Notes under the pieces: generated by a model
What the model saw: only the letters and a program-made list of their open reading frames with translations
Databases searched by the model: none
Told to the model about the DNA's origin: nothing
Translations under genes and position numbers: made by a program
In this document: positions 2,953 through 35,610 of the stretch, in pieces
Position numbering within the stretch: the first letter of the stretch is position 1
Layout of the letters: every line of letters starts with the position of its first letter
Virus record (IMG/VR): IMGVR_UViG_3300044846_005188
Coordinates: 1-38,890 of that record
From: a virus
Length of the DNA: 38,890 nt
Strand: one strand, 5' to 3'

Positions 2953-3602
2953 CGCAGCACCTCCTCCTGAAGCCTGGCAAACATCTCATCGCAGCTCTTA
3001 TTCCACTGCCCCTCCAACAGCGCCGACGGCGCCAACCCCAAAATCCCGCACATCGTCTGAAACATCAGCCGCACCTCCCGCTCGATCGGCCCGTGAAACT
3101 CAACAATCGCCTGCTCCACCATCCCCTTCGGCAACAACTTCCCCCCCTTCTCCAACTCCTCCCGGATCTTCGTCTGCATCGCGCTCATCCGCGCAATCGT
3201 GTCCAGCCACGGCTTCGTCCCACCCGGCTTCCCCGCCTCCGCATGCAACGTCAGCTCCATCTTCTCCATCCGCTCCAACGCCCCCGCCAATCCCAACTCC
3301 CCCACCGCCACCTCCGCCACCGGCACCACTTCCAACGGCTCCGGCACCACAACACCCGCCACCCGTTCCTTCACCACCGCCCCCGCGATCCCCGCCGGCA
3401 ACACCTGCGTCATCCACCGCGCCCACCACACCCGCAACTCCTCCGGATCATCAAGCGGACAAGCCTCCCCCACCTCCACCCCCCGCGCCCGCCACCGCTT
3501 CAGCGTCCGCAAATTCTTCCCATACACCCCCTCATACTCCTTCAACGGCCGCCGCAAACCCGTCAGCCGCACCCCCTCCCCCGCCTCAGCCTCAGCACTC
3601 AC
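2949..3602 (-). CDS. Terminase small subunit candidate
   Basis: A 217-aa protein directly upstream of the large terminase and overlapping its GTG start by 4 nt. The N-terminus has a probable winged-helix or HTH element (LKEYEGVYGKNLRTLKRWRARGV), as in DNA-recognition subunits such as lambda Nu1. The middle is a hydrophobic Val and Glu rich linker. The C-terminal half is helical with ERMEKMELTLHAEAGKPGG and a final segment that would contact the large subunit. The GTG start at 3602 encodes MSAEAEAGEG and is preceded by TTTGACAC and a G-rich run (3603-3622), the same leader type as other late genes. It is the first gene of the late operon. Confidence 0.75.
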   Translation of the reverse strand: MSAEAEAGEGVRLTGLRRPLKEYEGVYGKNLRTLKRWRARGVEVGEACPLDDPEELRVWWARWMTQVLPAGIAGAVVKERVAGVVVPEPLEVVPVAEVAVGELGLAGALERMEKMELTLHAEAGKPGGTKPWLDTIARMSAMQTKIREELEKGGKLLPKGMVEQAIVEFHGPIEREVRLMFQTMCGILGLAPSALLEGQWNKSCDEMFARLQEEVLR

Positions 3603-10157: not shown

Positions 10158-10203
10158 AATTATTCAACTTCTGGTTGGGTTAACAAACTGTTCAGCAGAG
10201 AAT

Positions 10204-10485
10204 TCATTTCTCCAGCTTCACTTTGATTCGGTCGTGACTCAGCGTTTTGAAGGCCATGACAGCCGCGTGAGCAACAATAGCCGTGGCGATGTAAGAACAT
10301 CCGCGTTCGGTCGGGTCTTCGATGCGATCCCACCATGCGGTGCCACCTTCCTTCATACCTCCGATCCAGATCGACATTAGCCAGCAGAGTAGGGCGAATC
10401 CTCCGGCGATCACGGCAGGCCATACGACCCACCACCAATGCTGAACAAGTTGGTAGAGGCAACGGGCAGGGCGGTTTTCTTTCAT
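10204..10485 (-). CDS. Small membrane protein
   Basis: A 93-aa protein with two probable membrane segments: VVWPAVIAGGFALLCWLMSI (about 20-39) and YIATAIVAHAAVMAF (about 65-79). The ends are basic (MKENRPARC, HDRIKVKLEK). It sits between the ParB-like and primase genes. Base composition is more balanced than in its neighbours, suggesting a recent arrival. A CTAAC box ends 12 nt before the ATG (10498-10502). Superinfection exclusion or membrane anchoring are possible roles; none is shown. Confidence 0.65.
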   Translation of the reverse strand: MKENRPARCLYQLVQHWWWVVWPAVIAGGFALLCWLMSIWIGGMKEGGTAWWDRIEDPTERGCSYIATAIVAHAAVMAFKTLSHDRIKVKLEK

Positions 10486-10596
10486 AGTTTTTTGGTAGTT
10501 AGAGGGTCTGAAGGCTTCGGCGACGTGCCGCTCTCGGCCCGCGCCTCACCATCGGCGTTCATATCATCTCTTATCTGTGTCATCTGTGGTTCCTCA
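10486..10596. repeat. Intergenic short repeats
   Basis: No gene is seen. Near 10566-10592 lies the repeat ATCTGTGTCATCTGTGGTT, a 9-10 bp unit (TCATCTGTG type) of the kind scattered in PVC-group genomes. A CTAAC box (minus strand) at 10498-10502 serves the membrane protein gene. Confidence 0.5.
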
Positions 10597-11940
10597 TCAC
10601 TTCTTCAACCCCAGCACCCAATCACACACATCCGGAATTAGATGAGACATTCCCCCCTCATCCATCATCCTCGCCCACTCCGGCTTCCACTCTCCACCCG
10701 CCTCATAATTCGCCCTCAACTCCCGCACCGGCCCCAAATCCACCCACGCGCTCATCTCCATCCGTTGCTCGATCACCACCTGCGCCCGCTCCTCCGGCAC
10801 CTCCCCTCCCACCCCATCACAAGCCGCCAGGGCCGCCTCCACCCTTTCATCCTTCAGATCCGTCCCATCCGCCGGATCCGTCACATCTTCCACCCCCGTC
10901 CGCCGCCTCTTCCCAACAAGCCACGCCCCCGCGCTCCCCTCCCGCCACGCCTCCTCCGCCTGCCGCAGCAGCGCCTCCGGCACCATCGCCTCCGCCGTCA
11001 CCTCACCCCCCAGCCCCATCACCGGCACCACCCGCACCGCCATCCCGTGGCGCACCGCCAGATCCAGCCACCGGATCCCCTCCGGCGCCCCCTCCGCCAC
11101 CTCCGCCACCGGCACCGCCACCAGCGCCCCCACCATCCCCCGCTCAAACTGCCCCCGCTCACCCCATCGCACCCCCGCCACAAACATCCCCTCCTTCCGC
11201 AAACACCGCACCACCTCCTTCTTCAAACGCCGCTGCCACGTCCCCACCGCCTCCTCCAGCGCCCCATCCCACCCCCGCTCCCGCTCCCGCGGCACCACCA
11301 CACACTCCCGCACCACCTCCGCCGCCTGCCGTGGCCCCAGCGGCTCACACTCCAGCACCGGGTGCATCACCAGTTGCACCGCCTCCTCACGCCACTCCAG
11401 CGGCACCCCCAGCAACACCTCCACCGTCCCCAGGCACACATGCCCCGCCTCATCCCGGCGCCGGCACAACCCCGTCAGCACCTCCTCCGGCAAATCCAAA
11501 AGCCCCTGCCGCGTCCGCACCCACTCCAGCCCCCGGGAAATCTCCCTCGCCACCTCCTCCTCCGTCATCCCCAGCCCCAGCAACGCCCGCACACCATTCC
11601 CCTCATCCACCACCGTCATCTCCTCCCGCTGCAAATTCTCCAGCACCACCAACTTCAGCGCATCCTCATCCGTCATCCGCCGCACCACACACAACACCTC
11701 ATCCACCCCCGCCTCCATCGCCCCCGCCCGGCGGCGATGCCCCGCCAGCACCTCAAACACCCCCGCCTCATCCCCATCCAACTCCCGCACCAAAAGCGGC
11801 GCCTCCACCCCCCGCCTCCGGATCGACTCCACAAACTCCCCCCACTCCACCGTATCCCGCCGGAACGTCCGATTCAACGGATGCCCCCGCAAAACACCCA
11901 CCTTCAAAACCCGACAATCATTCATCACATCCTGTTTCAT
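10597..11940 (-). CDS. ParB/Spo0J-like protein
   Basis: A 447-aa protein whose N-terminal 130 residues are a ParB-type domain: NRTFRRDTVEWGEFVESI, then VLAGHRRRAGAMEAG (GHRRR, the CTP/nucleotide-binding motif) and ENLQREEMTVVDEG. An HTH follows (MTEEEVAREISRGLEWVRTR, about 130-150). The long C-terminal part is not recognised and includes VTDPADGTDLKDE, coded by a 9-bp repeat. In phages such proteins act in plasmid-like partition, replication or gene regulation; no ParA gene is present, so a role in replication or regulation is more likely. The leader is CTAAC-N10-ATG (11951-11955). Confidence 0.8.
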   Translation of the reverse strand: MKQDVMNDCRVLKVGVLRGHPLNRTFRRDTVEWGEFVESIRRRGVEAPLLVRELDGDEAGVFEVLAGHRRRAGAMEAGVDEVLCVVRRMTDEDALKLVVLENLQREEMTVVDEGNGVRALLGLGMTEEEVAREISRGLEWVRTRQGLLDLPEEVLTGLCRRRDEAGHVCLGTVEVLLGVPLEWREEAVQLVMHPVLECEPLGPRQAAEVVRECVVVPRERERGWDGALEEAVGTWQRRLKKEVVRCLRKEGMFVAGVRWGERGQFERGMVGALVAVPVAEVAEGAPEGIRWLDLAVRHGMAVRVVPVMGLGGEVTAEAMVPEALLRQAEEAWREGSAGAWLVGKRRRTGVEDVTDPADGTDLKDERVEAALAACDGVGGEVPEERAQVVIEQRMEMSAWVDLGPVRELRANYEAGGEWKPEWARMMDEGGMSHLIPDVCDWVLGLKK

Positions 11941-11971: not shown

Positions 11972-12016
11972 CATCAGTCCCATTCGTCCCATCAGTCCCA
12001 TTCGTCCCATCAGTCC
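11972..12016. repeat. Perfect 9-bp tandem repeat, five units
   Basis: CATCAGTCC and CATTCGTCC alternate for five exact 9-bp units between the ParB-like gene and the integrase fragment. The last base of the array is the last base of the fragment's stop codon. It belongs to the short tandem repeat families dispersed in this genome. Confidence 0.9.
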
Positions 12017-12342
12017 TATCCCACCCGCCTCACCGGAAACGGCACACACCAATCCTCCACCTCCACCCGCACCGGCGGCGCCGCATCCATTGGAGAAAGC
12101 ACCGCCCCCTTCCCCAGCGCATGCGTATAAATCTCCGTCGTCTTCACATCCTCATGCCCAAGATGCTCCTGGATCGTCCGCAAATCCTCCCCGCGATCCA
12201 GCAACGCCGTCGCATTCGAATGCCGCACCGTCTTAGGATTCACCCACGCCTGATATTGCTCCCGAGTCGTCAAAGCATGGCCAGTCTTCAACTGCGCTTC
12301 ATTCATCTTAAAAACCGCCTCATCATCCGTCATCGTCGTCAT
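12016..12342 (-). CDS. C-terminal fragment of an integron-type tyrosine recombinase
   Basis: A 108-aa protein that corresponds only to the last part of a tyrosine recombinase. Residues about 38-88 read [39 protein letters not shown] and KGAVLSPMD, close to the end of integron integrases ([36 protein letters not shown]...SPLD). The second catalytic Arg, the GH histidine and the nucleophile Tyr are present; the HxxR histidine is Lys. The first Arg and the core-binding domain are absent. It may be a degraded gene or a stand-alone piece. The start lies 4 bp from a 34-bp repeat also found at the end of the intact integrase gene. Confidence 0.75.
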
Positions 12343-12345
12343 AGT

Positions 12346-12379
12346 ATTATTCTACTTGTTGTGGGACACTTCACTGTTC
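12346..12379. repeat. 34-bp direct repeat, copy 1
   Basis: It matches 20121-20154 at 33 of 34 positions in the same orientation. It covers the last nine codons and stop of the gene at 12352-12741 (protein ending NSEVSHNK) and a few bases beyond, ending 4 bp from the start of the integrase fragment. Confidence 0.95.
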
Positions 12380-12741
12380 TCCCAATGGAATTTGCGCGGG
12401 AACGGCATCACCCCGAAAGTGACCTCCGCGCATTGCCGGAAGATGTTCGCGGTAGCGCGTGCCATGTTCCGCTCCGCAATCGCCGTTTCGATGTCTTCCA
12501 GTGCGCCCTTGTAGCGGGCATGGAGATCCACCGCTTTCTTCCGCCATTCGTCGCGCTCGCGCTCCAGCGTCCGCGCCAGGTCACACATGCGACGGTAGGC
12601 CGTGAGCGGTGCGGAGTATTCTCCGATGCGGTGCGCATCCGTCTCCATCATCGCATCCGTTTCCGGCGTCAATGAAGACGGAGAACCAGCGCGTGGTGGC
12701 AACCCGCCATAACTTTCTTCGTTGGAGTCTTGGGGTATCAT
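12352..12741 (-). CDS. Small phage-type coiled-coil protein ending NSEVSHNK
   Basis: A 129-aa protein with an N-terminal disordered part (SPSSLTPETDAMMETDAH) and a long helix (LARTLERERDEWRKKAVDLHARYKG...). The TPETDA plus LERERDE pattern is common in small phage early proteins of unknown role. GC and strand skew are lower than in neighbours. The C-terminal eight residues and the DNA around the stop are shared with the unrelated gene at 20127-20516 (34-bp repeat). A CTAAC box ends 14 nt before the start (12756-12760). Confidence 0.7.
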   Translation of the reverse strand: MIPQDSNEESYGGLPPRAGSPSSLTPETDAMMETDAHRIGEYSAPLTAYRRMCDLARTLERERDEWRKKAVDLHARYKGALEDIETAIAERNMARATANIFRQCAEVTFGVMPFPRKFHWENSEVSHNK

Positions 12742-12823
12742 GGCTTTTGATCGTGGTTAGATTGGTTTTCGTTGGCTGTTGCCACACGACAGGCGTTGAC
12801 GTAAAAACTCATCATCATCTCCC

Positions 12824-13582
12824 TCACTTCCCCCTCCTGCGGTTTTGGTTCCCCATTGCGCTTCTCCTCATCTTCCCCCGCGCCTCCTCACTCTTTGAAA
12901 ACTGTGCCGTCGGGTGTCCACCCACCGCCCGCACTGGTGCCTTCACCACCCGATCCGCCAGTGCGCTCCACCGCGCCCGTGCCCCCTGCGGCTTCTCCCC
13001 GAACACCCTCGCCAGCGCCTCAAAACTCAACTCCCGCCGCCCCAGCTCCGTCCCCTCCCGTCGCGCATTCGGCTCCACCACACTCACCAGCTCCGGCCGA
13101 TACGCCTTCGCCACACAAAACACCCGCTTCGTCCCCTTCACCAGCCAGTCCCGGCCGGGAGGAAACAAATGCTCCAACAGCCCCCGCAACCGCCGCTGCC
13201 ACTCCTCCCCATCCTCCAGCCCCGCCAGCAACTCCCCCAGGCCGAACCCGCCCTCAATCGCCCCACCCCCGCGGAACCGCTCCACCTCAGAAACATCCCG
13301 CCCCTGCAACACCCCCGGCGCCAAATGCCGCAAAAGCGCCAGCCCCCGCCGTGCCACACCCTGCCAATCCCTTGCATCCGCCCCCGCAAACAAAAACGCC
13401 AGCACCTGCTCCACCAAAAACTCCCGGCTCACCTCCCGTCCCTCCCCGCCATCCTCCCGCGCCATCAACTCCTCATCCGGAGCCAACTGCCGCTTCGCCC
13501 ACGGCCCCAACGCCGCACCATCCACCCCCACCCCATCCATCACCGCCTCCGCATCACCACTCAACATTGATAACTTTTTCAT
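12824..13582 (-). CDS. Hypothetical protein with a possible HTH
   Basis: A 252-aa protein, not recognised. The middle is helical (QVLAFLFAGADARDWQGVAR). A probable helix-turn-helix is at about 195-220 (SFEALARVFGEKPQGARARW), followed by a basic C-terminus (RGKMRRSAMGNQNRRRGK). This suggests DNA binding. The start ATG at 13582 has one CTAAC box 7 nt upstream and a second exactly 20 bp further (13590 and 13610). It lies in the leftward early operon between two small genes. Confidence 0.6.
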   Translation of the reverse strand: MKKLSMLSGDAEAVMDGVGVDGAALGPWAKRQLAPDEELMAREDGGEGREVSREFLVEQVLAFLFAGADARDWQGVARRGLALLRHLAPGVLQGRDVSEVERFRGGGAIEGGFGLGELLAGLEDGEEWQRRLRGLLEHLFPPGRDWLVKGTKRVFCVAKAYRPELVSVVEPNARREGTELGRRELSFEALARVFGEKPQGARARWSALADRVVKAPVRAVGGHPTAQFSKSEEARGKMRRSAMGNQNRRRGK

Positions 13583-13589
13583 AAATTTC

Positions 13590-13614
13590 GTTAGATTGTA
13601 AATTCAACCGTTAG
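13590..13614 (-). promoter_or_regulatory. Paired CTAAC boxes, 20 bp apart
   Basis: Two copies of CTAAC (minus strand) at 13590-13594 and 13610-13614, a spacing of two helical turns. The upstream copy contains the stop codon TAA of the 13611 gene; the downstream copy is 7 nt from the ATG at 13582. Confidence 0.6.
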
Positions 13615-13982
13615 ACCTTCAGACCTTCCACTTTCAAACTCTCCACCGCCGCATCCTTCCCGCACCCTGGCACCACCTCCCCCACCAAACTCCCCACAAT
13701 CGCCTCATGGCTCTCCACCACCGGCCACCGGCCACCACCGCCCTCCTGGCACCCCTTTGCCATCTCCACCAGCCACTCCACCCGCCTGTCCATCAGCGGA
13801 TCATACCCCGGCCGGTGCTGCACATCCCTTGCCACCGCAAGAAACACACACCTCCCCAACCACGCCTTATCCGGCACCCGCACAAACTCCCGCCGCTCCC
13901 TGCGCAAACGCACACAAAGCCCCCGCACCTCATCCGACTTCATCGCTGCATGTTTGTCACTCATTGGCATAACTCCTTTCAT
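13611..13982 (-). CDS. Hypothetical protein
   Basis: A 123-aa protein with a basic helical N-terminal half (VRGLCVRLRRERREFVRVP) and a central helix (RRVEWLVEMAKGCQEGG). The true start may be the second ATG (MSDKHAAMKSD, 13964), which has GGAGTTATGCCA upstream. The C-terminal ESLKVEGLKV is coded by a short tandem repeat (GAAGGTCTG type) and was probably added by repeat expansion. No family was recognised. Confidence 0.55.
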   Translation of the reverse strand: MKGVMPMSDKHAAMKSDEVRGLCVRLRRERREFVRVPDKAWLGRCVFLAVARDVQHRPGYDPLMDRRVEWLVEMAKGCQEGGGGRWPVVESHEAIVGSLVGEVVPGCGKDAAVESLKVEGLKV

Positions 13983-14007
13983 CTCTTCAACTCAGCATTT
14001 CAGCATC

Positions 14008-14241
14008 TCAACATTTACCCCCCATCTCCCCCACCCGGCGCAAAAACCTCACCACCCAAAACCGCCCGCCCCCACTCGTCCGATTTGCCCACTCATAAGC
14101 AAACACCTCGAACCCACCCCTCTCCAACCGCCGCCGCACCAAATACACCGGTGCATCCGCCGCCTGCAAAGCCACCCGCACCCGAGCCCCATCCAAGGCC
14201 CCCCCGTAACACTCAATCAAAATTGCATCGCCCGTATTCAT
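14008..14241 (-). CDS. Small hypothetical protein
   Basis: A 77-aa protein (MNTGDAILIECYGGALDGAR...) with strand-rich pattern: ILIECYGG, RVRVALQAA, PVYLVRRRLERGG, FEVFAYEW, FWVVRFLRR. The start overlaps the exonuclease stop (ATGA), and a CTAAC box (14253-14257) ends 11 nt upstream, inside the exonuclease gene. It is translationally linked with the exonuclease. Function unknown. Confidence 0.6.
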   Translation of the reverse strand: MNTGDAILIECYGGALDGARVRVALQAADAPVYLVRRRLERGGFEVFAYEWANRTSGGGRFWVVRFLRRVGEMGGKC

Positions 14242-15062
14242 AAAATCGCTTTGTTAGAATTCCCATCCACAAGATCCGTCAAATCCGCCGGATCCGCCGG
14301 ATCCGTCCCACCTCCCATTTCCCACGCCTCCCACACCGCCGCCGCAAACGCCTCCTTCACCTCACCATCCAGCCCCTCCCACGTCGGCAGCAACCACCCC
14401 CGCGTCTCCGCCAGGCACTCCCGATACACCCCCCACCCCCGCTCCACATCCGGCTCCTGCTCCACAAATCCCCACAGCGTCTCAGCATCCTCAAAATCCG
14501 TCGGATCCGTCCCATCAGTCGGATCTTGTTTCCTCCTCACCCCACACCGCACCACCGCCCACGCCTCCTGCACCGCATCCTCCAGCGCATGGTGCATCAC
14601 CTTCCCCTCGCGCCTCACCCCCGCCTCCGCGCAAAACGTCCGCGCACACCGCTGATTCCAATGCTGCCACCTCACCGCCACCCCACTCCGCTCGATCAGC
14701 CCTCGCAGAATCACCAAATCAAAATCAATACCCCAGCTCCACATCCTTCCCTCCTTCTCATCCCAATGCTCCTTCAAAAACTTTGCCAACCTCCCCACCG
14801 CCTCCACCGGCTCCACAAACTCCTCAGCCCCTGGCATCACAAAACCCTCACTCTCCCGCTTACTCCACCACCGCACCGTCTCCACATCGATCGCCCCCCC
14901 CGCATCCCTCACCTCCACATAAAACCGCGGCCCCAGCGCCCCCAGCACCCGATCAAAACACACCGCTCCCACCGAAAGCACCCGCGCATCCGGCCCCGTC
15001 CCCAGCGTCTCCAGATCCACCATCACATCCGTCCACTTCACAGTTTCAAATTGGTTATTCAT
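14238..15062 (-). CDS. DnaQ-fold 3'-5' exonuclease (Rv2179c-like)
   Basis: A 274-aa nuclease. Acidic motifs of the DEDD fold are visible: DVMVDLETLGTGPDA (D and E near residues 15-17), WSWGIDFDLVIL (about 109), and HHALEDAVQEAW (H and D near 158-163). The order and the LETLGT and HHALEDA forms fit the Rv2179c-like 3'-5' exonuclease family found in phage replication and recombination clusters. The region after residue 175 has a KQDPTDGTDPTDFED insertion and the C-terminus TDPADPADLTDLVDG, both coded by 9-bp repeats (14495-14528 and 14269-14315), which are not part of the family fold. The start context has CCAAC rather than CTAAC. Confidence 0.82.
   Translation of the reverse strand: MNNQFETVKWTDVMVDLETLGTGPDARVLSVGAVCFDRVLGALGPRFYVEVRDAGGAIDVETVRWWSKRESEGFVMPGAEEFVEPVEAVGRLAKFLKEHWDEKEGRMWSWGIDFDLVILRGLIERSGVAVRWQHWNQRCARTFCAEAGVRREGKVMHHALEDAVQEAWAVVRCGVRRKQDPTDGTDPTDFEDAETLWGFVEQEPDVERGWGVYRECLAETRGWLLPTWEGLDGEVKEAFAAAVWEAWEMGGGTDPADPADLTDLVDGNSNKAIL
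14269..14315. repeat. GATCCG-type 9-bp repeat, copy in the exonuclease C-terminus
   Basis: 47 bases nearly identical to 15094-15140, both starting ACAAGATCCGTCAAATCCG and ending ACCTCC. Here the array is coding on the minus strand (TDPADPADLTDL). Confidence 0.85.
14495..14528. repeat. GATCCG-type 9-bp repeat inside the exonuclease gene
   Basis: Inverted relative to the copies at 14269 and 15094. On the minus strand it begins CAAGATCCGAC and encodes QDPTDGTDPTD, an Asp-rich insertion after the nuclease domain. A similar array is at 16853-16895. Confidence 0.8.
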
Positions 15063-15093
15063 ATCATCAATCAGTTTGTTGGTTCACCTCTTC

Positions 15094-15140
15094 ACAAGAT
15101 CCGTCAAATCCGTCTGCTCCGTCAGATCCGTCCTACCTCC
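15094..15140. repeat. GATCCG-type 9-bp repeat, intergenic copy
   Basis: It matches 14269-14315 except for six positions. It lies between the exonuclease and the excisionase-like gene and covers that gene's last codons. Confidence 0.85.
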
Positions 15141-15339
15141 GCCGCTCCCTCCCCACATTCGCCTCCACAAATGCCTCAAGATCCACCTCCCGCACCCGCA
15201 CCAGCCGCGGCCCCACCTTCACCCGGGGGAGATCCCCCCGGGTGATCAGATACTCCACGCCCCGCTTGCTTATCTTCAAAATAGCTCCTACCTCCTCAAC
15301 GGTGTAAAAAATCAATTCTTTTTTGATCGGCGGTTTCAT
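15133..15339 (-). CDS. Excisionase-like MerR-type HTH protein
   Basis: A 68-aa protein with a MerR/Xis-like winged helix: FYTVEEVGAILKISKRGVEY (residues 11-30), LITRGDLPRVKVGPRLVRVR (31-50), then EVDLEAFVEAN. Proteins of this type bind as excisionases or small regulators. Being in a phage with a tyrosine integrase, it is the best recombination directionality factor candidate. The start overlaps the stop of the GIY-YIG gene by 4 nt. Two adjacent CTAACC boxes (15355-15365) lie upstream, inside that gene. Confidence 0.75.
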   Translation of the reverse strand: MKPPIKKELIFYTVEEVGAILKISKRGVEYLITRGDLPRVKVGPRLVRVREVDLEAFVEANVGRERRR

Positions 15340-15962
15340 GGCGTATCTTCGCGGGTTAGGGTTAGGTCATTAAGAACCGAACTCGGATCGTTGAAAGCCG
15401 TGGCATTGTTATGCACAAACCGCTGGCGGGCCTGATCCATGTTCATTTCTGGCTTCAACAAACCAATGAACGCTGCCTCCACTCGATTCAGATGATTTAA
15501 CCCACAAGGAAGGATAAAAACACTGTCATAAACCTTTTCCCCATGGCCCATAATTCTCTGCCCAACGTCCTTGCTTTGGCCAACATAAATCACTTCGTCC
15601 CCAAAAACGAGGAAATATATTCCGGAAACCTTCGGCACTTCAATCAATCGATCGGACACCATTGATAGGCACTGGGGAACCATCCAAGGCATTGCCTCCT
15701 TCACCAAAACCGGAACCGGCTTCAACTGAACCCCATCATGAACCTCCATAACATTTTCTCTCAACCACTTCACAATATGAGTTCTCATAAAAAAGATTTC
15801 CTTCTTCGAAACCAAAACATGAGGGCACACTTTAGCTTTTGCATAGCCAATAATTTCATCCTCAGCCACACCAGTAATCTGAAAAACCTCTTTTGCTGTC
15901 AGCATCTTGGGCCACGAACCGTCCGCGTAGCCTTCAATTTCCATTTTCAGTGACTTATACAT
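15336..15962 (-). CDS. HTH plus GIY-YIG domain protein
   Basis: A 208-aa protein. Residues about 20-70 resemble a MerR-type HTH (MLTAKEVFQITGVAEDEIIG ... IVKWLREN). Residues about 112-175 are a GIY-YIG nuclease-like core: SGIYFLVFGDEVIYVGQSKD, then VGQRIMGH and a conserved Glu in RVEAAFIGLLKPEMN. The domain fits the family pattern with G-I-Y, Y-V-G, Arg and Glu in order. Roles could be site-specific DNA cutting, homing or restriction-like activity. Base composition is clearly more AT-rich than the neighbours, a sign of recent transfer. No CTAAC box was found before its start. Confidence 0.75.
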   Translation of the reverse strand: MYKSLKMEIEGYADGSWPKMLTAKEVFQITGVAEDEIIGYAKAKVCPHVLVSKKEIFFMRTHIVKWLRENVMEVHDGVQLKPVPVLVKEAMPWMVPQCLSMVSDRLIEVPKVSGIYFLVFGDEVIYVGQSKDVGQRIMGHGEKVYDSVFILPCGLNHLNRVEAAFIGLLKPEMNMDQARQRFVHNNATAFNDPSSVLNDLTLTREDTP

Positions 15963-16012
15963 ATCTCAATTTTGGTTTTGGTTTATCTTGGCCCATCAAA
16001 AATCTTCACTTC

Positions 16013-16300
16013 TCACTCGGCACTCGCCACTCGTTTCCATTCATTCAAAAACGTCTCATAATCCCTCAGCCGGCCCCCCTGCGTCCGCTTCGCCAGCCAC
16101 TCATGGAAATCCGGCAGGAAGATCCGCAGCCGTGGCCGCTTCTCCCCTGGAATCCTCACCACCGGCAGCGCATCCATCTCGATCATTCGATCCACCTCCG
16201 TCCCCTCGCACCCCAGGAACCGCCCCACCGCCTCACGGCTCTGCATCGCCCGCACCACCGCGGCCTTCTTCACCTTCAGACCTTCGACTTGGCGGCTCAT
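16013..16300 (-). CDS. Hypothetical protein with HTH-like N-terminus
   Basis: A 95-aa protein. The start at 16300 (MSRQVEGLKVKKAAVV) overlaps the stop of the preceding gene (ATGA). KAAVVRAMQSREAVGRFLGC plus TEVDRMIEMDALPVVRIPG and RPRLRIFLPDFHEWLAKRTQ follow the layout of Xis/MerR-type HTH proteins (helix pair, wing, terminal helix), so it may be a second small DNA-binding factor. The upstream VEGLKVK is coded by a short-repeat sequence. Downstream are CACTCG-type repeats. Confidence 0.55.
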   Translation of the reverse strand: MSRQVEGLKVKKAAVVRAMQSREAVGRFLGCEGTEVDRMIEMDALPVVRIPGEKRPRLRIFLPDFHEWLAKRTQGGRLRDYETFLNEWKRVASAE

Positions 16301-16530
16301 CCCACCCTCCTCTCCTCCGGCGTCTCTGCCCATCGTGGTGCATCATTCCTCATCAGCCAGGCATCCAGCGCCCGTCCCACATCCGCGAACGTATCCATCC
16401 GGCTCTCCTTCAGCCCGCACCGCCCCGCATTCGCCCGGCCCGCCGCGCACCGCTGCACCCGGTTCCCCACCGGCACAAACCGCCGCGGCTCAGAAAACCG
16501 CGCCTTCCGCACCTTCTGCTCCTCACTCAC
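16297..16530 (-). CDS. Small hypothetical protein
   Basis: A 77-aa basic protein (MSEEQKVRKARFSEPRRFVP...). The GTG start overlaps the stop of the upstream gene (GTGA), and its stop overlaps the next start, so three genes are tightly coupled. Cys residues (QRCAAGRANAGRCGL) could be a metal or disulphide pair. The C-terminal helix is FADVGRALDAWLMRNDAP. No family was recognised. Confidence 0.55.
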   Translation of the reverse strand: MSEEQKVRKARFSEPRRFVPVGNRVQRCAAGRANAGRCGLKESRMDTFADVGRALDAWLMRNDAPRWAETPEERRVG

Positions 16531-17183
16531 AGCCCCACCCCCTCACCACCCATCACCCGCTTCACCTTCTCCTCCCGCTCCAGGCACACCCGCAGCGTCC
16601 CCCGGTATTCCCTCAGCCACTCCTCGCACCGGCCCCGTTCCTTCCGCTCCGCCCACACCTCCATCATCCTCGCCACAGAACCCCGCATCCGCCGCGCCAG
16701 CACCGCCCGCCAGCCCCACCGCGTCGCCGCCCCAAAAACATCCGCAGCAGGTGCATCCCCGGCAGCCAACCCCATTGGATCAGCCGGATCCGCGTGGCCA
16801 CTTGCCCCTGCTGCGGCCCCCTCCCCGGCACTCACCGGATCAGAAAACTCTTCATCAGAACCATCAGACCCATCCGTCCCATCCGTCGGATCTTGCTTCC
16901 CCTCCGGCGGGCAAATCTCCCACCGCGCCAAAAACTCATCCCGTCTCACCCGCACCGGCGCAAACTCATGCGTCCGCGTCCCCCGCAGCATCCCCGCCCG
17001 GCGCAACAAATCCTCCGTCCCCTTCACCCGCTGGATCCAGCACACCGGCTCCCCGTGGTGCAGCTCCACCCGTGCCCGAGCAAACACCGCCGCATCCCGC
17101 GCCCCATCGAAACCATCCCCCCGCGAAGGAGAACCCCCCGCCGGCATCGTCGTCTCAATCGTCTCAATCTCTGAATGATTCAT
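16527..17183 (-). CDS. Hypothetical protein with repeat-coded insertions
   Basis: A 218-aa protein of unknown function. The N-terminus MNHSEIETIETT is coded by a 9-bp repeat (GAGACGATT type). A central insertion KQDPTDGTDGSDGSDEEF is coded by the GATCCG-type repeat at 16853-16895. The C-terminal part is a long basic helix (MRGSVARMMEVWAERKERGR ... CLEREEKVKRVMGG). Residues 35-60 (ARARVELHHGEPVCWIQRVKG) look like a folded domain. A CTAAC box lies 28 nt upstream. It heads the leftward trio of small genes. Confidence 0.55.
   Translation of the reverse strand: MNHSEIETIETTMPAGGSPSRGDGFDGARDAAVFARARVELHHGEPVCWIQRVKGTEDLLRRAGMLRGTRTHEFAPVRVRRDEFLARWEICPPEGKQDPTDGTDGSDGSDEEFSDPVSAGEGAAAGASGHADPADPMGLAAGDAPAADVFGAATRWGWRAVLARRMRGSVARMMEVWAERKERGRCEEWLREYRGTLRVCLEREEKVKRVMGGEGVGL
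16853..16895. repeat. GATCCG-type 9-bp repeat, coding copy
   Basis: CATCAGAAC, CATCAGACC, CATCCGTCC and similar 9-bp units. On the minus strand it begins CAAGATCCGACGGATGGGAC, the same start as at 14528. It encodes an acidic linker in the 16527-17183 gene. Confidence 0.8.
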
Positions 17184-17276
17184 AATCTCAGTCCCGTGAA
17201 TTTTTCGTTTGGTTAGAATCTAGGAAAACTTGGCGGGAGAACAGGCACACACCCCTGAAGCCCATCCCCCCGCCAC

Positions 17277-17305
17277 CTCCCGCCCGGCACACCCACCGGC
17301 GGGAG
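17277..17305 (-). terminator. Hairpin after the RHH-like gene
   Basis: CTCCCGCC and GGCGGGAG arms, extended by CGG/CCG pairing, downstream of the 17315 stop on the minus strand. No T-run follows, so it is a pause or partial terminator. Confidence 0.45.
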
Positions 17306-17314
17306 AAACTTGCG

Positions 17315-17503
17315 TCAGGCGGCATGCTCCGGCGTATGGCGGAGCGTCAGATTCAGGAAATGCTCCGTCAGACTTGGCGCACCTGCTGCCGCCGCCGCCT
17401 CTTGGAATTGCTCGATCTCCGCCGGTGCCAGCTCATCAGACAGATCAAAAACGATCCGCGTCTCACTCCGGCTGCTCACATCATCTCTCGTCTCGTTGCT
17501 CAT
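17315..17503 (-). CDS. Small RHH-like protein opposite the repressor
   Basis: A 62-aa protein (MSNETRDDVSSRSETRIVFD...). RIVFDLSDEL is a possible strand, then AEIEQFQEAAAAAG and SLTEHFLNLTLR are helices, the layout of a ribbon-helix-helix regulator. The ATG at 17503 follows GAGCC. It is divergent from the HTH repressor, in the position of a Cro-like or early regulatory gene. The 95-bp gap between them holds operators. Confident as a gene; the fold is a guess from pattern. Confidence 0.6.
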   Translation of the reverse strand: MSNETRDDVSSRSETRIVFDLSDELAPAEIEQFQEAAAAAGAPSLTEHFLNLTLRHTPEHAA

Positions 17504-17598
17504 GGCTCGTGTTGCGTTACGCAAGCAACCTATTACAGCCCGCAATCATCCTGCAACAAAAAAGTTGCGTCCTGTAATTTTTTTTTTACAATGCCCCC
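17504..17598. promoter_or_regulatory. Divergent lysogeny-switch operator region
   Basis: Contains the 13-bp palindrome TTGCGTTACGCAA (17512-17524) and GCAAC-AAAAAA-GTTGC (about 17553-17568), with TTGCG half sites. The leftward promoter could be TTGTTG-N16-TGTAAT on the minus strand, with the palindrome between its -10 and the ATG at 17503. This is the likely target of the 17599 repressor. Confidence 0.7.
17565..17592 (+). promoter_or_regulatory. Promoter of the repressor gene, probably leaderless transcript
   Basis: -35 TTGCGT (17565-17570), 16-bp spacer and -10 TACAAT (17587-17592). The expected transcription start, about 7 bases later, coincides with the GTG start codon at 17599. Confidence 0.6.
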
Positions 17599-18069
17599 GT
17601 GGAACAGACCGAAATCACACCCGAAACCCTCACCAAATGGCTTGAGGAAAACGACAAAAACGCCAAATGGCTAGCCGACCAACTCAAAGTCAGCCCCGCC
17701 AGCGTCAGCCGGTGGCTCAACGGCAAACAAACCATCGGCAACACCGACAAAGCCCTCCTTCGCCTCCTCCTCTGGAACGAAATGCCCTTCTCCATCGTCG
17801 GCATCACCCCACTCAAAAACCACCTCGAATTCACGCCCGACCAATGGCGCGTCATCGGCATCCTTGCCCGCCGGGAAGGCATCACCGAAGCCAAATGGAT
17901 CGGCAACCGCATCCGCGACTACCTCACCTGGGACACCGCCGCCCGCGCCGAAACCAACGCCACACCCGCCCTCCTCGTCGCGGACTCCCCCGACGCTCCC
18001 ATCTCTCCCTTACAACCTCTCAAAACGCCCACCACCTACCCCTCTGGAAGAGCATCAAAAAAGGCGTAA
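17599..18069 (+). CDS. HTH (XRE-type) repressor
   Basis: A 156-aa DNA-binding protein, the probable lysogeny repressor. The HTH is TPETLTKWLEENDKNAKWLA and DQLKVSPASVSRWLNGKQTI (residues 7-46), a classic lambda-repressor-like fold with recognition helix SPASVSRWL. The rest (FTPDQWRVIGILARREGITE, AKWIGNRIRDYL) is not a recognised cleavage or dimer domain, and no LexA-type Ser-Lys protease motif is seen. The gene starts with GTG and lacks a Shine-Dalgarno sequence; the promoter places the transcript start at the codon itself. A terminator follows at 18137-18167. Confidence 0.8.
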   Translation: MEQTEITPETLTKWLEENDKNAKWLADQLKVSPASVSRWLNGKQTIGNTDKALLRLLLWNEMPFSIVGITPLKNHLEFTPDQWRVIGILARREGITEAKWIGNRIRDYLTWDTAARAETNATPALLVADSPDAPISPLQPLKTPTTYPSGRASKKA

Positions 18070-18136
18070 CTCCCCCCGAGTTTCTCCCATTCCATCCCTG
18101 TCTCCACTGCAAAATCCAACACCAAAGAAGCTCATA

Positions 18137-18167
18137 AAACCCGGCGGCCCCAGCCTCCGGGTTTTTT
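18137..18167. terminator. Rho-independent terminator after the repressor gene
   Basis: AAACCCGG and CCGGGTTT pair around a 12-nt loop, with a six-T tail on the plus strand and an A-run on the other side. It could work in both directions and lies between the convergent repressor and membrane-protein genes. Confidence 0.85.
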
Positions 18168-18215
18168 CATCCCCGCGCCGCACAAGCAACCCTCTGCATC
18201 CTCACAAACCCTCAG

Positions 18216-18581
18216 TCACTCGAACGGATCCCGTTTCAGCGGCAGCCTTCGTGGCCGTTGAGTAGGAGCCCCCGGCCTGCGGATCGGCATCCCCTTCCCC
18301 CCGGCACCGCCCGATCCGCCGCTCCCTCCATCTTTCCCTGTCGATTCCCGAGGCAGCAAAAAAGCCACGATCCACCCCAGCGGCCCCAGGATCAGCCCAC
18401 AAGCCAGCCCTGCCCCTGCGCGTCCCCGTTCCCCGCCGATCCACATCCCCACAAACCCCATCACCACCCACACCCCGAACACCCACACCCCGAACCCCTC
18501 CCCCACCTCATCCATCCCCAAAACACCCCCCAACCCCACACCCCAAGCAACCCCAACCCCCAACACATCATCAAAAGCCAT
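18216..18581 (-). CDS. Membrane protein, superinfection-exclusion candidate
   Basis: A 121-aa protein (from MAFDDVLGVG; an earlier ATG at 18638 would add 19 residues). Two or three membrane segments are visible: GVWVFGVWVVMGFVGMWIG, then AGAGLACGLILGPLGWIVAF with the GPLGWI motif common in small bacterial membrane proteins. The tail after the membrane is Gly-rich, then basic (PIRRPGAPTQRPRRLPLKR). It lies between repressor and integrase, where lysogenic-conversion or exclusion genes often sit; this role is inference. The start choice is uncertain. Confidence 0.6.
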   Translation of the reverse strand: MAFDDVLGVGVAWGVGLGGVLGMDEVGEGFGVWVFGVWVVMGFVGMWIGGERGRAGAGLACGLILGPLGWIVAFLLPRESTGKDGGSGGSGGAGGKGMPIRRPGAPTQRPRRLPLKRDPFE

Positions 18582-18687
18582 TGCACCGGCAGCAACAAAG
18601 TCCAGATTCATTCCCTCATCCAACACCTCAAAACCCACACATCAACCCCAAACCCCGCCCCCACCCCAAAAAACACCACCCTCCCCC

Positions 18688-18708
18688 GTGTGTAAACCGT
18701 GTGTAACC
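18688..18708. promoter_or_regulatory. Integrase arm-type sites, left (GTGTGTAA repeat)
   Basis: GTGTGTAAACC is followed directly by GTGTGTAACC. Similar words occur at 18850-18881, on the other side of the tRNA-like core, as expected for arm sites of a tyrosine integrase. Confidence 0.55.
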
Positions 18709-18753
18709 CCACCCAATCCCCCAAAAACCCCTAAAAACAAAACCCCACCCAAA

Positions 18754-18779
18754 GGGTTCGATTCCCATCGCCCGCTCCA
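18754..18779 (+). other. attP core: tRNA-Gly 3' end
   Basis: Starts GGGTTCGATTCCC (T-arm and loop), then ATCGCCCGCTCCA (acceptor strand, discriminator base and CCA). It corresponds to the 3' end of bacterial tRNA-Gly genes. The rest of the tRNA is missing. Short tRNA 3' ends next to an integrase gene are the usual phage attachment core, since integration then restores the host tRNA. It is 98 bp upstream of the integrase start. Confidence 0.85.
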
Positions 18780-18849
18780 AAAACCCCTTGTTTCCCAGCC
18801 TCTCCCCTTTCAAAAACACCCAGAAAAACCCAAAATTCCCGGTTTCCCT

Positions 18850-18881
18850 GTGTGTGAAATGGTGTAAAACCGCCGTGTGAA
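18850..18881. promoter_or_regulatory. Integrase arm-type sites, right
   Basis: GTGTGTGAAATG, GTGTAAAACC and CGTGTGAACC in a row, related to 18688-18708. The last one overlaps the GTG start of the integrase, so integrase binding may repress its own gene. Confidence 0.5.
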
Positions 18882-20121
18882 CCCGTCAAAAACCCCCACT
18901 CCCAAAGCGGAAAAAATCACCTACGGCTCCGCCACCATCACCCTCCACACCCGCGCCAACGGATACGTCGCCCTCTCCTGGATCGAAGCCGGCCGCCGCA
19001 TGCGCACCACCCGCGCCGGAATCGAAAACGCCCGCGCATGGGCAAAAAAACACGTCCGCCAGCTCGACTCCTCCACCGGCGCAAAATACGTCACCCCCCT
19101 CGCCGCCGAACGCCTTGCATGGCTTGAACGCATCGCCGGGACACCCGATTCCATCCCTCGCATTCTCTCCGAAATCGAAGACGCCCACACCGCCCTTTCC
19201 GGCCGCGGCACCATCCGCGAGGCCGTCGCCTGGTATCTTCTCCACGGCCCCCCCGCCGTCACCCATCACATGACCTTCTCCGCAGCCATTGCTGCCTTTC
19301 TCAGCGAATACGAAACCCACCACCCCACAGAAACCGTCCGCCCCGTCCGCGCCATCCTCAATCTAGCAGCCCGCAGCCCATGCGGAAAACTCCCCTTGCT
19401 CGAAATCACCCACGCCCACCTTGCCCCCATCGTCCGCTCCGGTTCCCCCGCCGATCGCACCGTTAGAAACCGCATTGCCTGCTTTGTCACTTTCTTCCGC
19501 CGCGCCGAACAGTTAGAATGGTGGCCCGCGGGGAAACGCCATCCCGCCGCCACCCTCAAACGCCCCCGCAAAATCGACAAAGTTCCCGAAATCTATCACC
19601 CCACACACGCCACCCACCTTCTCCGATGGGCTTCACAAAACCCACAACACCTCCCCTTCCTCCTCATCGCCGGATGGCTTGGCGTCCGCCCTGCCGAATG
19701 CGTTCGCATCACCTGGAGCGATTTTGATTTCCCCCACTCCCTGCTCCACATCCGGCCCGAAGTCGCCCGCAAAAAAAATCAGGAACGCTGGATCCCCATC
19801 GATCCAATCCTCCTTCCCATCCTCAAAAAATCCGCCGCCACTGCCAAAAGCCCCACCTCCAAAGCCTGCCGCTTCCACTCTCGCGCCCGCCTATCAGAAG
19901 CCGCCCGTGAAAACCCCGCCGTCGCCATCTGGATCCCCGACGGACTCCGCCACAGCTTCATCACCTATCGCCTCCAGATCCTCCAAAAAATCGACACCGT
20001 AGCCGAAGAAGCCGGAAACTCCCCCAGCGAAATCCGCCAATCCTATCGCCGCCCCATCCCCCCAAAACAAGGCATCGCATGGTGGCAAGCCCTCAAAATC
20101 CTCTCAACCCGCCGGAGATAA
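18877..20121 (+). CDS. int: Tyrosine recombinase (phage integrase)
   Basis: A 414-aa site-specific recombinase. The first 240 residues contain an arm-binding and core-binding (SAM-like) region. The catalytic domain has LGVRPAECVRI (first Arg, about 268), a Lys in RKKNQERWIPID (about 305), DGLRHSFITYR (second Arg; the usual His is Asp) and GNSPSEIRQSYRR (nucleophile Tyr). The GNSP...YR ending, in place of LGH...Y, is a form I associate with PVC-group integrases. It starts with GTG, overlapping a GTGTGAACC arm-like site, and ends 5 bp from the convergent gene at 20127. With attP upstream it marks the phage as temperate. Confidence 0.93.
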   Translation: MNPSKTPTPKAEKITYGSATITLHTRANGYVALSWIEAGRRMRTTRAGIENARAWAKKHVRQLDSSTGAKYVTPLAAERLAWLERIAGTPDSIPRILSEIEDAHTALSGRGTIREAVAWYLLHGPPAVTHHMTFSAAIAAFLSEYETHHPTETVRPVRAILNLAARSPCGKLPLLEITHAHLAPIVRSGSPADRTVRNRIACFVTFFRRAEQLEWWPAGKRHPAATLKRPRKIDKVPEIYHPTHATHLLRWASQNPQHLPFLLIAGWLGVRPAECVRITWSDFDFPHSLLHIRPEVARKKNQERWIPIDPILLPILKKSAATAKSPTSKACRFHSRARLSEAARENPAVAIWIPDGLRHSFITYRLQILQKIDTVAEEAGNSPSEIRQSYRRPIPPKQGIAWWQALKILSTRRR

Positions 20122-20154
20122 TTATTCTACTTGTTGTGGGATACTTCACTGTTC
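20121..20154. repeat. 34-bp direct repeat, copy 2
   Basis: It matches 12346-12379 with one mismatch, in the same orientation. It starts at the last base of the integrase stop codon and covers the 3' end of the convergent gene 20127-20516. Confidence 0.95.
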
Positions 20155-20516
20155 GGCAGAAGAATACGCTTCCAGTTCGAGAGTTCCTCGACGTTCACGC
20201 GGTGGTCGTAGTAGTTCGCTGATCCCTCCGTTTTGAGCCACACGTCACCCATGCGGGACGCTCCTGAGCAGGTATAGCGTTTCCCCTTCCACTCGACCGT
20301 CACTCGGTAGCGGGCGAGCCAGTCGTTGATTCCTTCCGTGTGTTTCGTATAGGCGGGGCGGGTGAACTTATCGAGCCATTCCTTGGCGTCCTTTTCCGCG
20401 TCGTTGGCGGGTGGTAGTTCCAGCCAGTCATAGACATGCAACGGCTCCGAAGATGCCGAACAAGGCGCGGATGGACAATCCGCCATCAGTGGTGTGTTGG
20501 TGTTTTCAAATATCAT
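20127..20516 (-). CDS. Small phage protein ending NSEVSHNK
   Basis: A 129-aa protein, same length as the 12352 gene but unrelated except for the last eight residues. The body has YDWLELPPANDAEKDAKEW and a beta-like stretch RYRVTVEWKGKRYTCSGASR. Codon use is mixed rather than G-ending, so it is probably a recent import along with the next two genes. The start is preceded by GGAAACGAC and overlaps the previous gene. No family was recognised. Confidence 0.7.
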   Translation of the reverse strand: MIFENTNTPLMADCPSAPCSASSEPLHVYDWLELPPANDAEKDAKEWLDKFTRPAYTKHTEGINDWLARYRVTVEWKGKRYTCSGASRMGDVWLKTEGSANYYDHRVNVEELSNWKRILLPNSEVSHNK

Positions 20517-20764
20517 AAAGTCGTTTCCTTCGGTGTGGTTTTCTCGTCAGCGGATGCCATCGCTGGGACGTTCTGGCGATTTAATACCTCGCGGGCGTGA
20601 TCCTCAAGGTGTCGAGCTGACAGACCACTGTGCGCGATGTATTCGAGCGCGGATTTCATTTCAGCGTGCTCCTTTTCCATGCGATCAACGTCCTCAGACG
20701 TAAGCACGAGCGGGAAGTAGGTTTTCCCGTGTCCTTTTCCGTAGAGTTTTCCGGTGTAGTTCAT
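20513..20764 (-). CDS. Small phage protein, function unknown
   Basis: An 83-aa protein starting MNYTGKLYGKGHGKTYFPLV, then LTSEDVDRMEKEHAEMKSAL (helix). The MNYTGKLYGK...LTSEDVDRME pattern is one I have seen in small phage early proteins, with no known function. The stop overlaps the next start by 4 nt. It belongs to the balanced-composition accessory block 20127-21196. Confidence 0.7.
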   Translation of the reverse strand: MNYTGKLYGKGHGKTYFPLVLTSEDVDRMEKEHAEMKSALEYIAHSGLSARHLEDHAREVLNRQNVPAMASADEKTTPKETTL

Positions 20765-20768
20765 GATA

Positions 20769-21020
20769 TTACCATTTGCATCGGTTTGCGCGGCAGGTGT
20801 GATAGGAATGCCATTCCCTTTCCCCGGCTGCGTTGGTTTGCTGCCATCGCACTTTCGTTATCTTGGTTTTCCACGAGCAGCACGGACAGACTCCACGCGG
20901 CACCGGCTGCTTCCACCAGTCGGCGGGGCGTTCCTCGACGGGCATCGGCGGCACATCGGAAGAGCCAGAACAAGACGTGCGAGGCAACGCCGAGGAAGTT
21001 GTTTGTGTATTCGTGGTCAT
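20769..21020 (-). CDS. Small zinc-ribbon-like protein
   Basis: An 83-aa protein with a disordered Ser/Thr-rich N-terminus and, in the second half, GVCPCCSWKTKITKV and HTCRANRCKW, four Cys-type ligands (C-x-C-C and C-x4-C) that suggest a zinc ribbon. The ATG overlaps the stop of the previous gene (21017). Composition is less skewed than the late genes. It may bind nucleic acid or protein; no family was recognised. Confidence 0.65.
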   Translation of the reverse strand: MTTNTQTTSSALPRTSCSGSSDVPPMPVEERPADWWKQPVPRGVCPCCSWKTKITKVRWQQTNAAGEREWHSYHTCRANRCKW

Positions 21021-21196
21021 TCGCGGCGTGCCTCCACTTGATCGTTGGAGGGACTAAAATTTAACGCCGCGAGGACGATGGTAACGTCTTCTGGCCTCAC
21101 CCACGCCGTGATATGGCCAGCGTCTTCGTGGTGAGTATCCACAATTCCGATCCATCCAGCGGGGTTTCTAATTTTGTGTTTCTTCCAGCGTTTCAT
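21017..21196 (-). CDS. Small hypothetical protein
   Basis: A 59-aa protein from the ATG at 21196 (MKRWKKHKIRNPAGWIGIVD); an ATG at 21217 would add seven residues. It is basic at the start, then beta-like (GWIGIVDT, HITAWVRPEDVTIVL). It overlaps the next gene by 4 nt and lies just downstream of the endolysin gene. Function unknown. Confidence 0.6.
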   Translation of the reverse strand: MKRWKKHKIRNPAGWIGIVDTHHEDAGHITAWVRPEDVTIVLAALNFSPSNDQVEARRE

Positions 21197-21262
21197 GGTT
21201 TTGCAGGTTTGCGCCATTCTCTCAGCCCGGCCGCAGCCTCGTCGCGGGTGATTGTGATGCTG

Positions 21263-34321: not shown

Positions 34322-34597
34322 TCAATCCACCATTCCATCCACCTCCACCAACACCCCATCCGCCAACAAACTCGTCAACCGCGGCGCAATCTCCTCCAGC
34401 ACCGCATGCTCTTCCGCCAAAGCAATATAAACATTCCCATCCCCATCCTTCCGCGCCTCACTCACCGGCACCATGCAGCTCTCAGTCGTCGGAACCCCCG
34501 GATTCTCCGCATCCGAAAAATACGGATAGCCGAATGCCGCGTCAATCTGCGCGCGGATGGCTTCATAAGCCTGCGGAGTGGTGCGGAAGATTCTCAT
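34322..34597 (-). CDS. Small acidic structural protein
   Basis: A 91-aa protein starting at 34597 (MRIFRTTPQAYEAIRAQIDA), overlapping the lectin-domain gene stop as ATGA. A helix is followed by TESCMVPVSEARKDGDGNVY, IALAEEHAVLEEIAPRLTSL and LADGVLVEVDGMVD. Small size and head location suggest a capsid accessory protein; no family was recognised. Confidence 0.6.
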   Translation of the reverse strand: MRIFRTTPQAYEAIRAQIDAAFGYPYFSDAENPGVPTTESCMVPVSEARKDGDGNVYIALAEEHAVLEEIAPRLTSLLADGVLVEVDGMVD

Positions 34598-35610
34598 GGT
34601 GTGCCCCATTTGGCTTTGAGGTAATTTCTGATTTTGTCTTGGTCGGAAGGGGAAAGGATTGACTCGTAAATTAGGAACTCGCTGAGGGCGCAATGAGCGA
34701 AGTTGATCGGGCCAATCTGTGCGCCAAGACTCAGGCCGATTGACGCCGCTGTCGCAACGGTTTCAGTTAATAAAACGCCGTTGTTTTTTCGGATTCGGTA
34801 GGCGTTGTTTTCTACCTCCAACGTCGCCACGGCCCATTCATTGGTAACCGTTGGAATTGATGCTGGCCCGCCGACCATCCGGCCCGTCGACGTGCTGGAT
34901 AGTTGCCTCAACTGGCTTGCCGCTCCAGCCCCTGCCGTGTGATAGATCACGTCGTTCACGACGGTGCTGCGGTTGGTGAAGACGACGAAGGCCGTGTGCG
35001 GTCGCGCAATAGCCAAAGGGTTTTTTATCAACAAGTCATCAGCCCCGTCCCACTCGATACATCGGCCTGAGCTTGGCCCTGCGCTCGTCGAGAGAAGCGG
35101 GCGACTGCCCGCCGTGGTTTGGGCGAGGATGTGTGCATTGCTCGACTTATCAAGCCATCTAGCGACAGCCTCGCCGTTCGCGGCAGGAACAAATCCGCTG
35201 CCTGTATCGCGCAGGACGGTGCTGGCGTCCATCGCGTCTAGCCAGACTTGGAGATTTGCGATGTCGTCCAAATTTAAGATGTCGAGGCTGTTGGACTCAG
35301 CCGTAGCGCTTCCGCCTGCCGAGGTTGCGGTGACTTCGCAGGTGATGAGCGTGCCAGCGTCGGCGAGGACGGTGTTGTAGGTGGATGAAGTCGCGCCTAA
35401 AATGTTAGATCCGCCCCGCTGCCATTGGTAGGCAAAGGATGCGGGTGAATTGTCCCAAGTGCCTGTGGTGGCTGAAAGTGTTTTCCCGATCTCCGCCGTT
35501 CCGGAAACTACCGGTGCCTCCAAGTTCACCGGTGCAGGCACCCCCTCACGCCGCAAAAACCCCGCCTGCAAAAAACCAGCCCGCGAAAAACCTGGACGCA
35601 CCATCCCCAT
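34594..35610 (-). CDS. Ig-like plus concanavalin-type lectin domain protein
   Basis: A 338-aa protein. Residues about 30-110 form a bacterial Ig-like domain: APVVSGTAEIGKTLSATTGT, then WDNSPASFAYQWQRGGSNIL and YNTVLADAGTLITCEVTATS. Residues about 115-335 match a LamG/concanavalin-like domain: LQVWLDAMDASTV, WLDKSSNAHILAQTT, CIEWDGADDLL and the C-terminal LSEFLIYESILSPSDQDKIR. Such domains bind sugars. The gene lies inside the head cluster, so this may be a head-fibre or capsid decoration that attaches to cells or mucus. Its composition is much less skewed than its neighbours, suggesting recent acquisition. Confidence 0.8.
   Translation of the reverse strand: MGMVRPGFSRAGFLQAGFLRREGVPAPVNLEAPVVSGTAEIGKTLSATTGTWDNSPASFAYQWQRGGSNILGATSSTYNTVLADAGTLITCEVTATSAGGSATAESNSLDILNLDDIANLQVWLDAMDASTVLRDTGSGFVPAANGEAVARWLDKSSNAHILAQTTAGSRPLLSTSAGPSSGRCIEWDGADDLLIKNPLAIARPHTAFVVFTNRSTVVNDVIYHTAGAGAASQLRQLSSTSTGRMVGGPASIPTVTNEWAVATLEVENNAYRIRKNNGVLLTETVATAASIGLSLGAQIGPINFAHCALSEFLIYESILSPSDQDKIRNYLKAKWGTP

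Follow-up and report, generated by a model that had tools for sequence, protein, structure and literature searches.

A repeated gene end in a phage genome as the probable attI-like insertion site of a phage-borne integron

Integron integrase genes (intI), attI and attC sites, and gene cassettes occur in phage genomes, in the form of integrons and of CALINs (Qi et al. 2023, PMC9892861). In Shewanella phage M16-3, the same attI is present at two arrays (PMC9892861), and in the chromosomal integrons of Treponema, intI and the cassette genes are co-directional (PMC3607928). Published phage integrons are still scarce, and several of them resemble pieces of host integrons.

The DNA analyzed here (the window) is a viral record of 38,890 nucleotides. 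Its ends are identical over 127 bp (positions 1-127 and 38764-38890), so that the record most likely represents a complete 38,763-bp circle. Apparently the portal gene crosses the record ends, as expected for a circular or circularly permuted genome. An almost uniform, very strong GC skew (about -0.45) extends over the whole window, largely independent of the coding strand.

A 34-bp sequence is found twice in the window in the same orientation, at 12346-12379 and 20121-20154, with identity at 33 of 34 positions and unrelated flanks (local E 1.6e-11). Recomputing the comparison of the two copies bore out the description in the earlier note. Each copy is the end of a minus-strand ORF of 129 aa (12352-12741 and 20127-20516) that closes with NSEVSHNK-stop, the remaining protein sequences being unrelated; the left copy lies 4 bp from the ATG of the minus-strand ORF 12016-12342, and the first base of the right copy is the last base of the stop codon of the plus-strand integrase gene 18877-20121. 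A second direct repeat, of 29 bp (28/29), is located at 3299-3327 and 11088-11116, inside two C-rich coding regions.

The best explanation of the 34-bp repeat, with a probability of roughly 0.85, is that it serves a phage-borne integron as an attI-like insertion site; two near-identical copies and one diverged copy would each form the docking edge of a short cassette array. The sites and the adjacent recombinase genes are as follows.

12346..12379, minus strand: repeat copy 1, putative attI-like docking site, 4 bp before the intI remnant; supplies NSEVSHNK-stop to ORF 12352-12741
20121..20154, minus strand: repeat copy 2, putative attI-like docking site; adjoins the 3' end of the phage integrase gene
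10158..10193 (about), minus strand: third putative attI-like site, diverged (array 1); edge of the third island
12016..12342, minus strand: integron integrase remnant; best family TIGR02249; both halves align to the intact IntI of L059, L007, and L004
18877..20121, plus strand: intact divergent phage tyrosine recombinase, a neighbor outside the cassette system; phrog_1, 84 bits; TIGR02249, only 19.6 bits

At each 34-bp copy, the GC skew changes abruptly from about -0.4/-0.5 to about 0, returning near 12.8 kb and 21.27 kb, so that each copy sharply delimits, on the left, an island of foreign appearance. This agrees with the idea, voiced in the earlier note, that less-skewed modules had been imported along with the repeat: the cassettes stand out against the window. 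In phages of this kind, cassettes can be recognized rapidly by their lack of the strong skew. Arrays 1, 2, and 3 contain 1, 1, and at least 3 cassettes, respectively.

10204..10485, minus strand: ORF of the array 1 cassette, 93 aa, within the 371-bp cassette 10190-10560
10443..10560, plus strand: attC of the array 1 cassette; covariance model CM R1, 55.3 bits, E 1.4e-9
12352..12741, minus strand: ORF of the array 2 cassette, 129 aa, function unknown; ends in the attI-like site
12683..12798, plus (canonical) strand: attC of the array 2 cassette, at the far end of the array; CM R1, 35.5 bits, E 1.1e-5
20127..20516, minus strand: ORF of the first array 3 cassette, 129 aa, function unknown; ends in the attI-like site
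20458..20573, plus strand: attC in array 3; CM R1, 51.4 bits, E 8e-9
20513..20764, minus strand: ORF of the second array 3 cassette; stop inside the neighboring attC
20769..21020, minus strand: ORF of the second array 3 cassette; start inside its own attC
20968..21047, plus strand: attC in array 3; CM R1, 47.4 bits, E 5e-8
21017..21217, minus strand: ORF of the third array 3 cassette (end-truncated); 92.7% identical stretch in phage G002/L007 from the attC boundary on

No attC was detected by CM R1, run over the window, at the far end of array 3. The 371-bp cassette of array 1 is 100% identical to positions 1-371 of L007 (contig IMGVR_UViG_3300042307_002122), and the two sequences diverge exactly after GAAC; the cassette is identical although the phage backbones differ, which points to recent transfer. 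Among the few other stretches shared at the DNA level with phages G002 and G003 are 35033-35505 and 34518-34629, likely the tail-fibre region, with 81-88% identity to G002 and 81-86% to G003.

The genes of these regions are separated by imperfect attC-type palindromes (GAACG...TTGTTC) that fold into an R arm, an unpaired spacer, an L arm containing two single unpaired bases, and a variable loop, the features by which attC sites are recognized. An alignment of 36 such sites, all from phages outside the window, has an invariant AAC and GTT core, with R boxes of GTTC or GTTA instead of the consensus GTTRRRY. The covariance model built from this alignment (CM R1) matched the window at four places (E between 1.4e-9 and 1.1e-5), each within one of the three islands, and gave no further attC anywhere else in the window at E<=1. 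Four phage records served as controls. The model recognizes the genuine class 1 integron attC beside aadA in P1 (MH445380; E 6.7e-6 and 3e-5) and, weakly, the attC of Shewanella phage M16-3. In virus Rctr41k, which encodes an IntI-like protein, CM R1 detected no attC in the stretch examined. The aligned sites show fixed-register covariation, but this and the fold statistics are biased, since the seeds were partly picked for arm complementarity. A simple hairpin scan of the G-rich strand of the window performed no better than a Markov null, so that the case for attC rests on the covariance model and homology. The 34 bp itself, tried as an attC-like sequence, has no hairpin conserved across the copies by eye and is therefore treated as attI-like.

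The site is not confined to the window. The pattern AACAGT-gap-AATAAGNSTCNATAAC was found in 17 stretches of viral contigs, each spanning 35-36 bases and nearly always located where an ORF ends, and only 7 times in GTDB bacterial genome contigs, with varied, chance-like spacing. The constant length at the ends of unrelated genes and the chance-like occurrence in bacteria point to a family of ~36-base sites of phages. The contigs that carry it range from ~30-kb phages up to 177 and 207 kb. In the 32-kb phage contig G001, three attI-like sites with cassettes are located at 976, 3756, and 16356, and a similarity search of this contig revealed no intI. Two other interpretations of these sequences were discarded. 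Mini-ORFs suggested that a zinc-ribbon ORF might start behind the site, or that a leader peptide might be encoded there, but this is not conserved; for dif/XerCD modules, the arms do not match by eye.

Homologues of both 129-aa genes have C termini other than NSEVSHNK. For the gene 20127-20516, L003 encodes a homologue (85% identity) that ends with LPNS-stop in a site of its own, and the gene body of 12352-12741 recurs in G001 with a different tail, while other G001 genes end in GAACAGTGAAGTATCCC followed by related sequence. Descent of a single gene family, which the earlier note had named as the outcome that would speak against a mobile cassette end, thus does not account for the site, where many unrelated genes end. 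Its suggestion of a shared cassette end used for gene swapping can be stated more precisely, as the docking of integron cassettes at an attI-like site. Contigs L053 (177 kb) and L062 (207 kb) are near-identical upstream and downstream and differ directly before the site, in 1,320 or 601 bases. The same swap pattern is seen between L059 and L061/L054 (1,324 or 1,705 bases before the site), and the near-identical phages G001 and G002 carry different cassettes adjoining the site. By genome comparison, cassettes move as units with breakpoints between G and TT.

Short conserved boundary sequences have been proposed as gene-exchange patches for lambdoid phages, and the recurrence of the site at the ends of different genes, along with the exchange that occurs there, could be ascribed to such a conserved gene-end patch and general recombination between phages, with no integron involved. 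This explanation is unlikely, given that the swapped units carry attC sites and that the model trained on these sites also matches class 1 integrons. Furthermore, homology at the breakpoints extends no further than the 4-bp GAAC, and IntI genes adjoin the site.

These IntI genes include the one next to copy 1. The earlier note regarded 12016-12342 as a C-terminal fragment of an integrase; the C-terminal part is indeed kept, but so are ~30 aa of the N terminus of IntI. The first 34 and the last 75 residues match the two ends of IntI, so that, as judged by alignment, this ORF is an IntI gene with an in-frame internal deletion: an N-terminal segment of about 30-34 aa is fused in frame to the C-terminal ~75 aa, with about 225 aa missing. 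The window therefore contains an integron integrase only in the form of a deletion remnant, whereas the genes in its relatives are intact. TIGR02249 (integron integrase) is the best family for the IntI of L059, L007, L004, and L052, with scores of 194-260 bits, just below the curated cut-off of 265 bits, and the IntI of L059 is about 40% identical to IntI1. In L059 and L054, the attI-like site precedes the intact 321-aa IntI by 16 bp, which places it where attI should be; in L007 and L004, IntI comes just after the last cassette. The position of the site next to intI is conserved in L059, L054, L007, L004, and copy 1 of the window.

The intact integrase next to copy 2 is an ordinary divergent phage integrase and not an IntI; no close relatives of it were found. 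L059 encodes both an intact IntI and a convergent phage integrase nearby (5.0-6.0 kb and 6.5-7.7 kb), the latter similar by eye to that of the window, and the surroundings of the right copy resemble the L059 layout with intI lost. The contact of one copy with the 3' end of an intact phage integrase gene, and the presence of a similar one near the site in L059, would be expected if the copies were attL and attR of a nested 7.8-kb element or a duplicated attP of this integrase. That is very unlikely, however. A genome can carry as many as three sites of this family, next to cassettes and with no such integrase. A phage attP shares its core with the host attB and is present in one copy in the free phage, whereas the circle holds two copies and a diverged third, and the 7 bacterial matches to the related pattern provide no host copy. 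No contig in the viral collection joins the flanks with 12380-20120 deleted, which the earlier note had proposed to look for, and no other record there contains the exact repeat. Nothing marks 12380-20120 as the single nested mobile unit envisaged in that note: each island is a cassette array of its own, and the 34-bp repeat is the constant edge of integron-type arrays rather than the end of one nested element. Joining of unrelated contigs at repeats during metagenome assembly is a very improbable cause, even though L007 starts exactly at GAAC, as assemblies do at repeats, because the L053 junction is identical in five contigs from different datasets, the L059/L061 locus is found in three contigs, and the window is a closed circle.

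The integron reading suggests the following course of events. An integron integrase would insert cassettes with their attC between G and TTC (GAAC on the coding strand); position and the breakpoints in the sequence comparison suggest that the 34-bp sequence acts as the recombination partner (attI). With the phage's own IntI reduced to a deletion remnant beside copy 1, capture would presumably occur in trans, using the IntI of another phage or of the host. The cassette genes are inverted relative to attC and attI and thus read towards attI, and the arrays would be transcribed with the phage operon from phage promoters. Lacking a stop codon ahead of the junction, a docked ORF runs into the site, which would add NSEVSHNK and the stop. 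Indeed, the GAAC junction lies inside the ORF and is followed by the attI-like site AGTGAAGTRTCCCACAACAAGTAG, which reads N-SEVSHNK-stop in the frame of both ORFs. Docking at one and the same site would explain the common ending of two unrelated genes; as far as sequence comparison can tell, the shared NSEVSHNK tail is not a sign of shared ancestry.

All four attC of the window lie on the strand opposite to the cassette ORFs, and so do those of the relatives. In the control integrons, the CM R1 strand is that of the cassette genes (class 1 attC are on the ORF strand), and in the usual, if not strictly defining, layout the ORFs share the attC top strand and point away from attI; the arrays described here depart from it. 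Four cassette ORFs on the strand opposite to attC carry DNA-methylase domains, which means that those cassette genes are real and therefore that ORFs are inverted with respect to attC, reading towards attI and, where it is present, on into intI. The ORF start lies inside its own attC in 43/49 cases, and many stops are in the next site. The count alone is not discriminating, since 73% of random 100-nt windows also pass the start-in-attC test; support for such starts comes from homologues, the methylase domains, and the polarity control. It seems fairly likely that these phages harbor an integron lineage with systematically reversed cassette ORFs that start in their own attC, cross the junction, and end in the next site, so that each move rewrites the C-terminal tail, and that the shared attI-like sites let phages of very different size trade genes. 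Searches of the open literature, subscription papers and preprints excluded, turned up no description of reversed cassette polarity or of this attI-like site family.

If correct, this would be a form of the integron adapted to phages, distinguished by a separate site family and by reversed cassette polarity; the recombination sites would encode the start as well as the end of the proteins that are moved. It would provide a testable route for gene traffic between unrelated phages, DNA methylases included. Short identical 3' gene ends in phage mosaics, accordingly, need not indicate common descent.

In comparison with known systems, the class 1 integron shares with these loci 40% IntI identity (IntI1) and an attC, that of aadA, matched by the same model; its R boxes are RYYYAAC/GTTRRRY, in contrast to GAAC/GTTC here, and it is in the loci described here that the ORF strand is reversed relative to attC. 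Similarly to Treponema, intI and cassette genes are transcribed in one direction, but there intI points to attI and is followed by the cassettes, whereas here the cassettes precede intI, which reads away from attI. The phage integrons of Qi et al. 2023 (PMC9892861) likewise combine intI, attI, attC, and cassettes on a phage; the cassette ORFs of M16-3 diverge from intI, while those described here run into attI and on to intI. Phage integrons as such have thus already been published (Qi 2023), and what differs here is that the ORFs are reversed, often starting in their own attC and stopping in the next site.
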